Positions 3,001 to 53,581 of a stretch of DNA of 64,000 bases are shown piece after piece. The stretch comes from Rhea pennata (Eukaryota; Chordata; Aves; Rheiformes; Rheidae). The position numbers and the translations under genes are program-made. The number at the start of each line of letters is the position of its first letter. Positions within the stretch are counted from its first letter, which is position 1. Where the stretch lies: the NCBI RefSeq assembly GCF_028389875.1, contig NC_084664.1:63318703-63382702 (forward strand). The letters are read 5' to 3'. The notes under the pieces are model-generated. The model made no database searches. It was not told the DNA's origin and was given only the letters and a program-made list of their open reading frames with translations.

Positions 3001-6000
3001 TCTCAGGTCACAGCTAGTGCAAAGGTTTAGTGCACTGAAACAAAGCAGAATAGCTGTTATTATGTCTTATAATAGAAATAACAGGCAGAATTGCTGGAAA
3101 TATTCTATCTTATACAGATTTTGCACCTTTACAAGCAGGAAGAGATCCTGGCTGCTTTTGTTGACACAAGTCTTGGCTTGTTGCGGTGGTTTATGTTGGT
3201 CTAATAGGCATTTTTCATCTTGTTCTGCCTTTTTTAACAAGATTTTCTATAATTTGCTAGCAAGGATGGTGTTAAAGGTTTTCTCCTCCTCAGCATAACA
3301 TATCTAATGCACTGTTCAAAACAGTTGAATATTGTTGCAGCTTTATCTGTCTACAGCTTGAATGGTATGATGCCTTATTGCAAAACTCTTGTTGGGCTTT
3401 AAAGCTACCATTCAAGCATCAACTAATAGCAGCAGAATACTTCTGACTTGTCTTGGAGTAACAAATGAACCATTCAAACAAAAAATTACATGCACCAAAA
3501 TTATTTGAAACAACTTTAAGAGGCCTTTTCTTTGCCTTTTTCTACTGGCTGCAAAATGTGAGTGAGGCATTGTATGGAGTAATCCCATGGCCAAAAAATA
3601 GATTATCATGTTTATTTTCAAAGAAGCGCTAAAGGACAACTTCTTAGGGGTATTTATATGCCACAAGATGCTTTATATACCTAGCGAGATAAAAGTCATA
3701 AAGGAAACATAGATAGATGTTTAAATCTCATTAAAAAGGCAATTAGGCACCTCTGTAGCTAAAGTGCTCCAGAAAGCCCAGTAGAGATTTATCTTTCTCT
3801 TTTACTCCCTCAGTTCCTTGGAAGGCTAGGTCTTGTGTTTTTATCCTCTTTAACTATCCCAGCTGAGAAGAAAATGACTTGGAAGATGAATTCCTCATTT
3901 CAAATGGGATTTTAGCCCAGGTACTTAAAAATGTGCCAGTGCCAAAGTCACTGAAAAGATTTTACGTCTGGGAGGGAGTCCTGTAAGAGAGGGCAAAATG
4001 GCTCTGAGCTGAGAGCAAGTTACTAACCCTTCACTTGCCTTTTTTTTCCAGGGGACTCTCTTTCTGTCCTTTAAAAGCCACCCTCCAAATCCTGTTTCCC
4101 AAGAAGTCTATTTGGTTTCTCCTTTCTCCCCACTACCGGACTCTCTTACTCATTGCAAAACACCTCCCTTCCCTCTCCCCGTTGCTCAACTCTTTCTAGG
4201 GAAGTATGACTCAATCTCCTCTCTTTCCTTCCTTCCCATGTGTCCCAGCCTGGCTCCCATGTTGGGCTCAGCTATGCTACCCTTCCACAGAAAAAGGTGT
4301 CTGGAATTGGAAACACAGATAAATCATGTTGTCATCCCTTTTTCTTTTGAATGAATTATCAATTTTTTTTCCCCAGGGACTTTTGCATAAGTCACTGCTA
4401 ATCATGTCTTATGTGACATAAATTCTACGTGCTCTGCAGAAAGTCCTGTGTGAAGCTCCCAGCGCACATCAGATAGCACAAGCCATCTGCCCAGTGTCCT
4501 GCTTTTGGATAACTTTTACACAGTATGGCTAGGTAAAAGGGGAGGTGAGGGGAAGAGCTGCTGTCTCAGTGACCCTCTGGATTCCTTACAATAAAAAAGA
4601 ACTCCAATTAAACAACTTCCCTATACAGAAAGGGGAGAGAAACCACTGAATCACACTGGTATATACATATAGAGTAAAATGTAGAGTTTTTTAAGGGTCA
4701 AAAAGTCATCTCCAAAAAAATTTGAGTAAAATAATTAAGTAGTGATGTATTAATGGTGTTAGAAGAACCAACATGAAATTATTACCATGGATCATTGTAG
4801 AGCTAATTAATGTCTATCTGTATGTGTATATAGACATGCATGTGCACAGCAATTATTACTACAAAGACATCATTGAGTAATTGTTTGAGAGACCCGTACA
4901 AATGCCAAGCATATTCTGTGATCAGTGCATCTGAAAAGTCTGCTTTCCAGATATTTGTCACATTATCTGTGCTCCAAGAATGAATGAATTTTTCCCACTA
5001 GAGAAAGAGATGGCCAGGAACCTGCCTGTCACAAAAGAAATAGAAAACACTCTTGACTGCATTTTTTTTTCAGTCTAAGTCAAGTCTCCCAGCAAAACTG
5101 TACAGCCTGCCTTGCCATTTCTCAGTCAACCTTAGTATTTCCACTAGAGCGGCTTCTCTCTCCTGATCCATTGCCTACTTCCATGGAGCTTCTCCCCTGG
5201 TTTCCTTTTGAAAAACACGTTTGCCGAACACGCTCGGTTTGAACACAAGGTGTTTTTGTGTGCTAACTAAACCTGTAAAACCGCTGTGAGAGTTCAGCGT
5301 GCGGCTGGTGGCTTCATCGCCTCTCAGTCCCCACCTTGCAGAGTGAGCTCCGTAGCTGAAGTTAGACCCTTCCATGAGCAGTACAGGCAGTTGTAAGGAT
5401 ACTCTAGGTGCAAGGCCTGGGCTACGAAGGAGTAGCCACACACTGGCTGGTGCCAGGCCAGGTGCATAGCTGCAGAAAGTTTTAATGAAGGTTGACTGGG
5501 TGAGTATATCTCTAGCATTGCCTGTGTCAGGTAATGAACTGCATTACTGTGCCCCGTGGCATGTTAATTTGGACTCGGTGACTCCTAATAACCGCCGTAG
5601 AGTGTATCTGTGCAGCTACTTTTGTCTAGATGCATCGTGAGGACAAGCCGCAGAAATGCAAACAAAAAAATACGCCGATATACACAGTAATGTATATGTA
5701 ATCTATCTCCCTCCCTTTCCATTACATAAGACCAGCAGGCGTGAGAAGAAGAAGAAGAAAAAAAAGCAAATTCAATTTTTATAACCATGGTGACCAGAAA
5801 CTAGTATATACAAAGAGAAGATCTCTAGAATACACAGATAGCAAGCTGGCCAAAAGCAAGCGTTCAGAGGAGGCTGGCACCAGGGGCCTGGCAAAGTCTG
5901 AGTTAGGTGCTCTGCTCCTGCTGTCCCTCGCCAGGAGCTTTAGCAAAAGTTCCCGTCAGCGCCATAGGAGTTTACCTGCAAGCAAGGGGAATACCCAAGA

Positions 6001-6273
6001 AAAATTACACCTTAACAAAACCTGGTAAAACTTGTTGGCTGCTTTGGAAAAGCGGCATCTTTACAGACGGGAATCGTTCGGTCGGCTGGTTAGAGTTCCC
6101 CTCCGAGCCGTCCTCCCGCGAGTCGCGCTTCGTCCCAAGCCTCTTGGGTTACGTCTGTGATGGTAGTTCTGCCTTGCTCTTGGGTCTGTCTCTCATAGCG
6201 ATAATGCCATCTTCTTTTACGCTTACTGTAGCAGTGCCACAAACCAGCATCCTGTTTGCCTTCTTTATTGCAG
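1..6273 (+). other. IKZF1: IKZF1 intron 3, left part (partial)
   Basis: Non-coding sequence upstream of the 60-bp cassette exon. I looked for the two short N-terminal Ikaros exons (the MDADEGQDMS and PEDLSTTSGG regions) and did not find them, so the window begins inside intron 3. The stretch is AT-rich unique sequence with scattered short homopolymers. The longer open frames on either strand resemble no family I know and look like chance. The last 400 bp before the cassette exon are open in the exon's reading frame. Confidence 0.75.
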
Positions 6274-6333
6274 CTGTATATGGGGCAGAAGGCTTTAGGG
6301 ACTTTCACGCAATAATTCCCAAATCTTTCTCCC
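6274..6333 (+). CDS. IKZF1: IKZF1 60-bp in-frame cassette exon (Ik-H type, 'exon 3B')
   Basis: Sixty bases bounded by an acceptor (TTCTTTATTGCAG) and a strong donor (GTAAGT). In the Ikaros frame, starting in phase 1 like all other internal Ikaros exons, it reads VYGAEGFRDFHAIIPKSFS plus split codons at both ends, which adds 20 residues. From memory, human Ik-H carries an extra 20-residue segment encoded between exons 3 and 4 with almost the same peptide (FRDFHAIIPKSFS). The inserted segment lies N-terminal to zinc finger 1. In human, Ik-H is reported to change DNA-binding behaviour; that function is established knowledge for human only and is inferred here. Length, phase and splice sites are seen directly; the identity depends on my recall of the human peptide. 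The exon lies inside a 201-codon open frame (5907-6512) that otherwise resembles nothing. Confidence 0.82.
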
Positions 6334-8445
6334 GTAAGTATACTGCAAACTCAGCTCACTACAGAGCATTTCCATCTAGTTCCTATTTTGTGGTCTTTTT
6401 TCCATCGTTTCAGTTCTCAGTAATTTACATTTGTGTGCATACGCTACCGACGGACGTGAGTAGTCTTAATCTTTTTTGGTTTGTTCACATGTATTTTGTT
6501 TTCACAGAGTAAGTCTATTTCAAAAGCCACTTTCTCCAAATTTCCTTGCAGGCGAGGGGTCTGTAATCTCTTTAAATATGTTTACATACAAATTCTTAGT
6601 CTTATAATTAAGAGAACAAATTTAGTGTACGATTTATGAAAAACTGTCCTGTAATCAAGCTGAGTACTTCTTTTACTTCTATTCACCGTGGTGAAAACAG
6701 CAGTATGGGGTTATATTCCACTGAATTTGTAGGATACTTTAGACTATTTCTGTTTAGCCATCTTTGGAAAGCATTGTTGAGTCACTGATTTTTTTTTTTT
6801 TTTAATTTTTCTGAACTTCTAAATTATTCCCCTTTTTAGGACAGACATTTTAAAGAAAAGATTGCTATTTATGACATGCACTCACTCTGTTTTAGGTATG
6901 ATTTCTATTAAAAATACAATATTTGAAAAAACATTAAATTCCTAAAATGATAGACTTTATTAAAAGGTGTTCACCCAAGCGGTGTCCAGAAATGTAAATG
7001 CCTTTACTTTCAGCACATTTCCCTGTAGTATTTTGAGTCGTCCTGCTATCAGTCCCACTCGTGCGATCCAGCTGGACCGTCAGGGAGGTTGCAGGGTGTA
7101 ACAGAGAACATGTTGGCAAACATTTCATTTGCAGATAAATGTCAAGATCTTTCGTGCCTTGAGGTATTTATTTCTCATAACTTAATTATGTCATTGCTAC
7201 AACGCCATTTATGAATAGGGCTACCAGAAAATGACTGTTACACGAAAGAAAAAGTCCTTTCTTTATTGGGTGGAACAGATCCCCTGCTTGCTCAGCTAGC
7301 CAGTATGCTTTCTAGGTTGGGAGAGGGGTGAGGGAAGAGGTGTTTCACTGAAAGGAAGGGAACATTTGGGAAAAAAAATTGGAATGGTAATTTTCAGTTT
7401 AACAAAGAACTATTTTCCCACCAAAATCGTGTGATTGGAAAAGAGGGAAGGCAGTATAAAGATGATTTAGTCTACATAAAACATAATCCAGACCTGTGGA
7501 GCGAAGAGGAATGGATAGTGGCATTAACTGACCTGAGCGCTGGCCCTTATCCATAGCCTGTCCAGGTTCAGGCCTTTGCTGCGTTGACATAAGACAAAAT
7601 TTACCTGTCTAGGTGCTATCCCATGCAGTGAGGCTATGCCAACTTTATGCCTGTATTTTACTTACGTTTGCAAGTGATTTTCACCCGTGGGATTATAACA
7701 CAAAGCAGTTCTCCAACAAAGCCAGAGCCGTTGTCCCACTCACCTCCACTGATCTGGCATTTTTTAGCAGTAGCTCATGGCTGCAGAGATCCTCTCCGCT
7801 AACTCAGCCCCCCTAATCCTGCTGTCTTAAAACCACAGCTATCCCTGCTATAATTTTGGTGCTAGCTCTAGCTGCTTCCTCCCAGCCTTCCCCACTCTGG
7901 TTTCTGTATCAGTGTTTGTACTGTTTTCTCTGCTGCTGTCCTTGCTTACCCTATAGACCTGCAAAACAAATATTTGGATTCAGTACAGCCCTCAGTATTT
8001 TCCTGCCAAGTGGAGAATGTTGCATTTTCAATTCATGTTCATCCACTGCCTTTGATGAGTTACTTATTTTCGCACTCACTCGTGTCAGAGAAATGCAAGT
8101 GATGTGGATTCATTGTAAATTTAATTCCAATTAGCCCGAATTGTCAAAATGGACGTTACGAAAGTCTTAAAATGACCTGGGAACAGACTTACGGTGTTAT
8201 TTAGGTGCCCAGCTCCCTTGACGCCTTGTATTTGTCTTACCGATGTTCATTGCTCCAGGTGTTACGAACTCATCACATCATTGCCCGCAGAAATGCAGTC
8301 ATATTTGTTGCTTCTGTTTTTGGGGGGTATATTGTACATTCTGTTTAGAAGTTATCATCATCTCTCTTTTTCGATGTGATTGTTTCTTTGCCACTGGGTT
8401 TGTTGTGCAACAAAACTGAGTGGCATCCTGTATTGTTTTTTGCAG
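6334..8445 (+). other. IKZF1: IKZF1 intron between cassette exon and exon 4
   Basis: Non-coding sequence. It starts with the GTAAGT donor of the cassette exon and ends with the exon 4 acceptor (TATTGTTTTTTGCAG). The reading frame stays open for about 180 bp past the cassette donor. Otherwise it holds only AT-rich unique sequence and short T runs (for example about 6789-6803). No other exon was recognised. Confidence 0.8.
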
Positions 8446-8706
8446 CCGGTAATATTAAAATAGAGACTCAGAGTGATGAAGAGAATGGGCGTGCCTGTGA
8501 AATGAATGGGGAAGAATGTGCGGAGGATTTACGAATGCTTGATACCTCGGGAGAGAAAATGAATGGCTCACACAATGGCCCAGGCAGCAAAGCTATGTCA
8601 GGAGTTGGAGGCATTCGACTTCCTAACGGAAAGCTAAAATGTGATATCTGTGGGATAATTTGCATCGGTCCCAATGTGCTCATGGTTCACAAACGAAGCC
8701 ACACTG
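8446..8706 (+). CDS. IKZF1: IKZF1 (Ikaros) exon 4: acidic linker and zinc finger 1
   Basis: Ikaros is a C2H2 zinc-finger DNA-binding regulator of lymphocyte development that acts in the nucleus, recruiting NuRD-type chromatin complexes. This exon is 261 bp, the size I recall for the mammalian exon. It starts in phase 1 after TTTTTTGCAG and ends ACTG before GTAAGG. It encodes an acidic segment ([20 protein letters not shown]), a serine/glycine-rich stretch, then [10 protein letters not shown] and finger 1 ([21 protein letters not shown]). The Cys and His zinc ligands are all present. The variable part ([13 protein letters not shown]) differs from what I recall of the mammalian protein. Reading on through the donor gives only about ten residues before a stop, so this is a true splice end. 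Skipping this exon would keep the frame and remove finger 1. Confidence 0.97.
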
Positions 8707-10769
8707 GTAAGGCCCGGCATAGTTTTTCCTTTAGTTGACAAGATTTGGCCATGCGTTAGGAGAAGACTTGTTTTCTGTGAGTGTCGCGCATATGTTCCCT
8801 CCTGTACGATGATGCAGCATCTGTGGGCATTTGGAACTGTGTTATTTTGTTATTGTGTTTTGGACTGGATAGGAATTGACATTTCTTCATGATTCATTCG
8901 TGATTGAAATACATCTATTGTGCCAGAAATTAAAAAAAAAAAAAAACCAAGATTCGCCAGCGTAATTAGAAGGCAAGCATAATTTCATTTATTCCAGTCA
9001 AAAGTTATACATTGTGCTGATATCAAATGTTGATGTCAGAAATAGTGTACAGTTTGGTTTGAAACTACATGAAAAATTGAGTTTTACAAAAAAATGACCT
9101 ATGACATTTCTAAGAATTTCTAAAAAAGAAAAAAAAAAGGGAAGAACATAGTTGTGACCAACTTTGCAATGGACACAGTTCTAATGCTTCCAACAGTGCC
9201 ACAAAGTTATTTATGGATTGGTGATTATGAAAGTGATTGGGAAGACATATAAGTGGTTTACAGGTTTAATGGAACTATCCTGTGCAGTTTTAGACAAAAA
9301 AAAATATTAATTCGAATGTTTCATGAAATAAAAGCAAGTGTTGTCACTGGTTGGGTCTGAACTAAAGGGTTTCCATTCGAACTTCAAGAGAGACATGTAA
9401 AGAAGTTGTTCTCCATAGTGACAACATGTCACTATCACAGAGCTGCATATTTCTTGGCTTGATTTTCTAATTCTAAATATCCTCAAAGAGGGGAAAAAGT
9501 GAAGAAGCTGAAACAAAGCAAGAAGTAAAGACCAGAGTGAGTTTCATCTTACCACTAAAAGCTACCTAAAAATTAGGCACCAATGCCAAGCTCTAAGATC
9601 ATCCATAGTCAAAAGGGAACTGAACTGTACTGTGATAGGCTTAAATCCTACCAGGAGGGCTTAAATCCTAGGGTTTCCTGTTATTTTTTATATGAGTCGT
9701 GAAGTTACTTTAAAAATAAATATATAGAGGATCTGACATTTGTGCATGAATACTCAAATGGGAGGGATTTTTAAGATATTTTTAAGGTATGAATGACCTG
9801 TCCAGTGGTCCAGGTTCCCATTGAAATATCCACACTAATGAACAAACAGATGTTTCTTCCTCCCCAGCACCCCCGATTACATTTAAATGATTTCTCCCGA
9901 ACCATCAAGGAGCAAGGTTAATAAAGCATTTTTGGAGTTTACTGTGAGGCCAAGCACAGCAGTAATTGGCAGAGATTCATGAAAAGACCCCCAAGCCTCC
10001 TTCCAGTGATACTGGCTCTCATATTAATCATGGCTGTGCAAGCTCTTGGAGCATGCAAGCTTTTGGCTTGTGGTGATGGTTAGAAAAGCTGTTACCTTTG
10101 CCTGTTTCAAAGCACTCTTCAATTAAATATAATAAATCCTTCTGTCCAAGGAAAAGCAGATACGTATCTTTATTGGAAAAGCCACATCTAGTTCTTAGAA
10201 GAGAGGCTGCAACATACTTCCTAGCTATAATGAGGGTTTTTTGGTTATTGTATACTTTTTTAATTGAATGTTAGGGTGATCCTTTAAAAGCTGATAAAAT
10301 GTATGTGGCAAGTGGCTTGCACAGGAGGCCTTTTTAACAGGCCCATTGCCTTAAAGAGGGTACTATAGTAGTTGACATAAAATGCTGCTGCTTAAAATGC
10401 ACTTCAAAGTGGAAGACTCTGTGCTTGTTTAATGAGGCTGCTGTTTTAATAAAAGCACGTTAAGGAGGTAAGGCAGGAGCTATTGGTTAATTTAGTATAG
10501 CTAAAATACAAAGTCAGTTTGTAATTTGGTAAATATCTGATAAAATGAAAAAAAAAAGAAACAAATAGAATGAGCTTGTCTGTACGTGCACATGCAGGAA
10601 CACACTTGGAAATGGAGAGCTGCTGAACTATCGCCACGCTGGGCCCCATATTGAAAAATTAGAGGCTAAAAGAGAGAGAGAGAAAAAAAAAGGAAAATCT
10701 CAAATCTGTAAATTTGCCCTGAATTGAAGTCTTGCTGTACAGATAGCCAGCGAAAGGCATTTGCATCGC

Positions 10770-11060
10770 TCAGCCCTTCAGGAAAAGGGTCATCGCAAAG
10801 GCCCTGGGGCTCGCGGCCGAGCAGCGCAGGAGCTGCCGGGCAGGCAGCCGCTTTGGGTCCCTAAAGGTCCGCAGGGGCGTCCGCGATCGCCTGGCAGGGG
10901 ATGGACCTGGTTCTCTTGAGCCGGGGGCTGAGCTGGTTGCGGGCAGCACTGCAGACCCCACGCGGTGTCTGGAAGGCCCTGCCGAGCGCCTGCACCTTTG
11001 GAGACCCCTTTTCCCCGGTGCCAGCGTCTCCAGAAGCTCCAGCGGTTTTCTTAATACACA
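10770..11060. other. GC-rich, CpG-containing patch in IKZF1 intron 4
   Basis: The base composition rises sharply against an AT-rich intron, with several CpGs (CTCGCGGCCGAGCAGCGC, GCGTCCGCGATCGCC). Such a patch inside a developmental regulator could be an intragenic promoter or enhancer, but nothing in the sequence proves it. The open frames across it on both strands (up to 100 codons) are best explained by high GC content. Confidence 0.4.
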
Positions 11061-12104
11061 CCTCCAAAACGTTGTGCACGTCAGAGTAATTTTTGAGCGT
11101 GCTAGGTGCGTTTTGGGCAGTTCCTAGTGACACTGTAGGTCCAGGGCATCCACAGGACTTCACAGTAGCAATCCCTTGCCAGTAGGATCCTCTTCTTAAC
11201 CAGAGAATATAATTAAAACTTGCAGTGGAAATACCTAAAGAGCTTCAGTTTGCTCAACAGAGCCACCTCCTTTTGTTTTTAATAAACTGAAGTTGAATCC
11301 CCTGATCCTGCTGTGGGACTTTATAAAGCCTTTGCTTTCCATTGGGTCTCACCCTGAGCCCCGGTGGGGGGCAAAGCTGGTAGCAGGAGCTGTGCTTTTA
11401 CGGGGAGAGACCGGGGAGTAGAGGAGCGGAGCTGGTAGTTTAAATTAAAGGGATGCCATGAGGAAATAGTAGTAACTGCTTTTCCTTTCAGTTGTACAGT
11501 GCAAATTAAAGTAGAAATGGGATATACTATTAGAGTACATTTAACCGACTATACTGAAGCCCATTTCAGTGCATGCCTGATGAAGGAATAAACCTTGTAA
11601 ATGAATTACTTTGCTGCTAATTCATGTAAAACCTGCATATGCAGTGAGGTTTCCTTAAATAAATATTTGATAAGTGAACAAAACTCTGGCACACAAAAAT
11701 GCCAAAATAAAATGACTGTCTGACCTGATAAAAGGCATAATTACATTTAATGAATACACCTGCCAAGTGCAGATATGCAGAGCAGCACCTAATATTTTCT
11801 ACGCCCTTCTGTGTGCAAGCAGCTGTAAAACACTGGCTGTTTTCTAGCACTTTACCTGTTGCTCCCATCTCTGGAGTGCATCCTGCTCAACAGTGTCTGA
11901 CTCCCTTCACTCTCCTGCTCCAAAGCTTCTAGTACTTTAATTTGCTTCAGCCTGCTGTCGCTTTCTTGCTCAGTGTTTAGGGAAAAGGATTTGCAGAGTT
12001 AGCAAAGAGGGAAAAATCCCTCCTGTTTGCTGATGTGACGACCACAGGCTATAGATTCATACTTCACTAGGTTAGTGTGTAGGTTACTGTGCACGTGTCC
12101 GTAT

Positions 12105-53299: not shown

Positions 53300-53324
53300 G
53301 ATTGAAATCATCCCAGAATCTCAG

Positions 53325-53581
53325 AAAAATCAGCAATGGGTACAAACTGAACCACAGAAAATTCTGCCTGAATGTGAGGTGGAATTTCTTCATTGTGAGA
53401 GTGACAAAGCACAGAAACAGGTTGCCCAGAGAGGCTGTGGAGTCTCCTTCTCTGGAGATATTCAAGGCCCGCCTGGATGCAACCCTGTCTAAGATGCTCT
53501 AGGTGACCCTGCTGAGCAGAGAGGTTGGACTAGATGATCTCCAGAGGTCCCTTACAACCTTACCCATTCTGTGATTCTGTG
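53325..53581 (+). mobile_element. CR1 LINE, 5'-truncated 3' end
   Basis: A chicken-repeat-1 non-LTR retrotransposon fragment. It contains the conserved 3' part AATTCTGCCTGAATG...GTGAGGTGGAATTTCTTC, GGTTGCCCAGAGAGGCTGTG, GGTTGGACTAGATGATCTC, CAGAGGTCCCTTACAACCT and the terminal ATTCTGTG 8-mer repeated twice (53566-53581). The 66-codon open frame starting at 53302 covers the end of the reverse-transcriptase ORF and its stop (RNRLPREAVESPSLEIFKAR), with no complete enzyme. CR1 copies are normally 5'-truncated like this and have no target-site duplication. It supports a bird or reptile source. Confidence 0.93.

Follow-up and report, generated by a model that had tools for sequence, protein, structure and literature searches.

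A candidate exon 3B of IKZF1 in Rhea pennata, probably derived from an antisense CR1-type LINE

Introduction

Is the 60-nt segment found between exons 3 and 4 of IKZF1 in Rhea pennata the counterpart of a human cassette exon, and from which kind of DNA may such an exon have arisen? The largest isoforms of Ikaros are distinguished by exon 3B, and the proportions of the Ikaros isoforms are important for lymphoid development and in leukaemia (available text of PMC3706598). In the same text, human exon 3B is described as 60 bp inserted where exon 3 ends, found in several Ikaros isoforms, Ik11 included, and without exon status in GenBank at that time. The window, that is the whole 64-kb stretch of DNA analysed (C2:63318703-63382702), contains IKZF1 from intron 3 onward. 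We take exon 3B to be the extra segment of human Ik-H, the peptide of which presumably resembles, or is nearly identical to, the 20-residue peptide encoded here.

Anatomy of the exon

The features discussed throughout are the following.

6239..6347, minus strand: probable CR1-type LINE fragment, antisense to IKZF1, delimited by matches to copies L002 and L005
6255..6273, plus strand: polypyrimidine tract and acceptor, TTTGCCTTCTTTATTGCAG, probably the antisense of LINE codons A-I-K-K-A-N
6274..6333, plus strand: candidate cassette exon of IKZF1 (60 nt; exon 3B / Ik-H type), with phase 1 at both ends, adding 20 residues in frame
6334..6339, plus strand: donor GTAAGT (GTCAGT at the aligned place of LINE copy L005)
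8446..8706, plus strand: IKZF1 exon 4, the next constitutive exon downstream, starting CC GGT AAT and completing the split codon

The initial annotation had placed a 60-nt exon at 6274-6333, with acceptor TTCTTTATTGCAG, donor GTAAGT and peptide VYGAEGFRDFHAIIPKSFS, in a 201-codon open frame. Re-reading of the sequence confirmed all of this: the boundaries are ttgcag/CTG...CCC/gtaagt, and the open frame spans 5907-6512. Of the solved structures, Ikaros is the best match to the translated exons of the window (E 2.4e-72, vs 8e-60 for Helios), and the host gene is therefore IKZF1. Exon 3 resides 21.5 kb upstream of the window, its 3' end (CTTGG/gtaaga) being at C2:63297206, and the introns flanking the 60-nt exon measure 27.8 kb upstream and 2.1 kb downstream. 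The phase 1/phase 1 assignment agrees with the end of exon 3 and the start of exon 4. Translation across the real junctions gives ..NERVL-A-GNIKIE when the exon is skipped, and ..NERVL-AVYGAEGFRDFHAIIPKSFSP-GNIKIE when it is included; both forms are open, and the latter is longer by 20 residues.

Patterns made of a strong acceptor, an open phase-1 frame and GTAAGT occur four times on the plus strand of the window, three of them with the donor at 6334 and one corresponding to the real exon 5, and are missing on the minus strand. At least one such pattern was found in 32 of 100 shuffled windows, and the exon anatomy by itself is thus weak evidence. Acceptor-like sites at 6199 and 6232, upstream of 6274, would define exons of 135 and 102 nt, respectively, open in phase 1 and both ending at the donor after 6333. 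Elsewhere in the window, overlapping open frames of 126 codons (plus strand) and 127 codons (minus strand) lie at 10747-11244.

The Ik-H-type reading of the initial annotation stands as far as a 60-bp, frame-keeping exon between IKZF1 exons 3 and 4 is concerned. Human exon 3B is likewise 60 bp long, sits between exons 3 and 4 and is inserted in frame, and is compared here by size and place; a transposon origin is absent from its description in the available text (PMC3706598). The two exons are probably orthologous, and the present one is probably spliced into mRNA in the species. The exon peptide, written as a degenerate DNA pattern, had no match in the genome contig and viral contig collections, and as text it was found in none of the papers searched. 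Ik-H is named once in the available part of PMC8689071; PMC5006282 was discarded as a source, since the "IK-HA" of its available part denotes a tag.

Likeness to LINE proteins

According to the initial annotation the open frame had no other similarity. This turned out to be wrong, as the antisense strand of the exon resembles LINE copies, which we take to be of CR1 type from their protein motifs, both as protein and as DNA. Read in antisense from 6334 down to 6245, exon and acceptor encode REKDLGIIA*KSLKPSAPYTAAIKKANRML, with one in-frame stop, presumably the stretch that follows the reverse-transcriptase core of CR1-like LINEs. With E values of up to 10 allowed, the 30-residue antisense peptide found 20 non-self places in the genome. 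L005 is the best of them (E 3.4e-4, protein level), the remaining 19 ranging from E 0.249 to 8.12. The reversed peptide had no match in the genome.

A 77-residue region of L005 is matched at no fewer than 149 other places (E 5.6e-8 to 1.2e-4; 150 scored, of 9,125 candidates), with open frames of up to 645 residues, and L005 is therefore a diverged LINE of CR1 type. The CR1 continuation EVILPLYSALVRP(H/L)LEYC is present in L013 and L021. Identification as LINE by the context of the copies themselves rests on L005, L013 and L021, and does not extend to L002 and L003. CR1 elements are abundant, a single CR1 peptide having 15,963 first-look candidates in the 1.27-Gb genome. One of them, a C-terminal LINE fragment at 53323-53499 of the window (plus strand), runs in the same direction as IKZF1 and shares 73% protein identity with L044 (E 1e-18); being much better kept than the exon fragment, it is probably a younger insertion.

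For a CR1 profile, 30 copies were retrieved with a peptide that lies downstream of the exon stretch and clear of it. Fourteen of the 30, carrying an in-frame upstream part and an EKDL-like motif, were used and the other 16 dropped, a filter which biases the profile towards the motif. The exon antisense matches this profile, gathered without the exon peptide, and ranks first of the 858 six-frame pieces of the window (11.9 bits, E 0.0092), the second piece scoring 4.3 bits. Decoys were drawn from the reversed window and 30 shuffled windows; the highest score among their 26,598 pieces was 9.8 bits, so that the margin of the exon over the decoys is modest.

No Pfam family was assigned to the antisense frame of the exon. 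None was assigned to LINE copies L005 and L013 either, which indicates that Pfam does not cover this stretch of the LINE. The 18 matches of the antisense frame to solved structures were taken as noise; the best was a viral glycoprotein (E 0.14), and the remainder comprised IMP dehydrogenases, a ribosomal protein and UPF0076 proteins.

Likeness at the DNA level and at the splice sites

When 201 bases around the exon were compared with the genome, two other places were found, on C3 and C13. The first (L002, C3:53691931-53692026) is 77% identical over query bases 40-134 (E 7.1e-11), the second (L003, C13:20595605-20595660) 84% identical over query bases 45-100 (E 6.8e-8). Neither is a copy of an mRNA, since intronic acceptor sequence is included. 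Paralogous IKZF exons were also considered and ruled out, because both places contain intron sequence and have no GT at the donor place. L002 and L003 are unexpectedly well-kept relatives of the exon and its acceptor, and may be either under constraint or younger copies of this type of LINE.

The likeness covers the exon and its intronic flanks, and extends to interspersed LINE copies. L002 aligns to 6239-6333, and L005 to 6244-6347, across both splice sites. In the exon region L002, L003, L005 and L014 scored 86, 67, 59 and 43, the best shuffles 26 to 30; these four of the 26 loci aligned are clearly above the shuffles, the other 22 at or near their level. When 125 bases of L005 were aligned in antisense (one strand), the score was 60 at the exon and 29 at the next best place of the window, while 10 shuffled windows gave no score above 32. 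All of the 22 non-self segments searched against the window had their best match at the exon spot, minus strand, a result biased by the choice of these segments for their likeness to the exon. A genome search with 456 bases of L003 returned L003 itself and the exon, and nothing else; close DNA relatives are thus few, though CR1 copies are many. The exon is closer to L005 than to young CR1 copies.

At the place of the acceptor TTTGCCTTCTTTATTGCAG, L005 reads TTTGCCTTTTTTACTGCAG and L003 TTTGCCTTCCTTGCTGCAG, and the donor GTAAGTA is aligned to GTCAGTA in L005. In strict register, among 22 non-self copies, AG is found at the acceptor place in five and GT at the donor place in two, both together in none; L005 has the AG in place and the GT one base off. 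Read in antisense, L005 (C10:799711-799797) carries an acceptor and GTCAGT about 60 nt apart, and transcription in that direction could make an exon of L005 too.

Discussion

The explanation that best accounts for these data, to which we assign a probability of about 0.8, is that the segment is IKZF1 exon 3B, a frame-keeping cassette derived from a CR1-type LINE lying antisense in intron 3. This likely origin had been overlooked in the initial annotation. The proposed chain of events is as follows. A CR1-type LINE would have inserted antisense in intron 3, where the antisense of its codons A-I-K-K-A-N would have provided a ready polypyrimidine tract and the acceptor. A near-donor, present in antisense just before the E-K-D-L-G stretch of the LINE (GTCAGT in L005), would have turned into GTAAGT, the 60 nt between the two sites being open in phase 1, plausibly by chance, with openness later kept by selection. 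Few changes would therefore be needed to convert the antisense element into a 60-nt exon. Some transcripts would then join exons 3-3B-4, and others 3-4; inclusion is predicted to place 20 additional residues before zinc finger 1 without altering the fingers, yielding an Ik-H-type protein.

Exonisation of an antisense LINE is favored by the protein and DNA matches, the rank in the profile test, the anatomy and frame of the exon, the size and place of human exon 3B, and the precedent of the ZRANB2 exon described below. Several observations count against it. The stretch is about 100 bases long, has one in-frame stop and matches no Pfam family; only L005 falls below E 0.2 among the 20 non-self protein matches; the profile margin is small (11.9 vs 9.8 bits), with copies filtered for EKDL; few loci stand clearly above the shuffles at the DNA level, and the L003 search is near-empty; none of the 22 copies has AG and GT both in strict register.

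Alternatively, the segment may be the remnant of an antisense LINE whose splice sites are cryptic, and which in this lineage is spliced into IKZF1 mRNA never or as mere noise, its agreement in length and place with human exon 3B being a coincidence. The frequency of exon-like patterns in shuffled windows, and the acceptor-like sites in five of 22 old LINE copies, speak for such a remnant. Against it stand a length of exactly 60 nt, as printed for human exon 3B in this intron, a frame kept at both real junctions, and a complete GTAAGT donor at the place where L005 has GTCAGT in the alignment. On balance, we regard this explanation as unlikely.

Insertion and exon could also be confined to the sauropsid line, human exon 3B being unrelated and equal to it in length only. 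The identity of 77-84% that L002 and L003 retain with the exon region would suit a younger insertion, yet the human peptide, presumably a similar one, speaks for a common exon. Since length, intron and effect on the frame are also those printed for human exon 3B in the available text (PMC3706598), we hold an independent origin in the two lineages to be quite improbable. An old coding exon of other origin, resembling a CR1-type LINE by chance, would fit a short region with one stop, no Pfam match, a modest profile margin and few DNA relatives, but it can hardly be reconciled with protein and DNA matches falling in one register, with controls either empty or much lower, nor with a likeness that spans the intronic acceptor and donor, not expected when a coding exon of other origin is compared with repeats.

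As to the age of the exon, we lean towards a single exaptation of an antisense CR1/L3-type LINE before the mammal-sauropsid split, from which the Ik-H exon of all amniotes, human included, would descend, kept since then as a regulated module, 20 residues long, of a master lymphoid factor. So early an insertion is possible, as 204 pre-amniote CR1 protein fossils are reported in human in the available part of PMC9004415. The 77-84% identity of L002 and L003 fits poorly with a fragment that would be more than 300 million years old if held in common with human, and this identity, together with the lack of copies with both sites in register, lowers the odds of a pre-amniote origin. L002 and L003 may be younger members of a long-lived family, while selection froze the exon; both may be under constraint as well; or the insertion may be younger than the amniote split.

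Among the matches listed in a literature search that mostly covered papers outside subscription, a transposon origin for this Ikaros exon was not found, and no paper was retrieved by combining IKZF1, exonization and transposable element. The words IKZF and Ikaros are absent from the main text of PMC9004415 and PMC5753468, and the exon is not mentioned in the available part of PMC8877892. If correct, a transposon origin would give the Ik-H-type isoform a datable birth, and would explain the position of exon 3B outside the zinc fingers. A comparison of intron 3 across vertebrates could then test when Ik-H splicing began, and one more frame-keeping coding case would be added to the very old LINE-derived exons. 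Parasitic DNA may thus have been the starting point of a splice variant that is known in blood cells of humans.

Two known systems offer a comparison. The ultraconserved PCBP2 exon, which Bejerano reportedly traced in 2006 to LF-SINE, is likewise an ancient retroposon turned into a coding exon, and differs in that the element is a SINE and the gene another one. A closer parallel is the ZRANB2 exon, in which, according to the available text of PMC3384923, an antisense Plat_L3 (CR1/L3) LINE supplies both splice sites. As proposed for the exon in the window, a CR1/L3-type LINE lies there antisense in an intron, and acceptor and donor both come from the element. The ZRANB2 exon differs because it belongs to another gene, derives from a 196-bp element, introduces a premature stop and has been studied in primates (PMC3384923).
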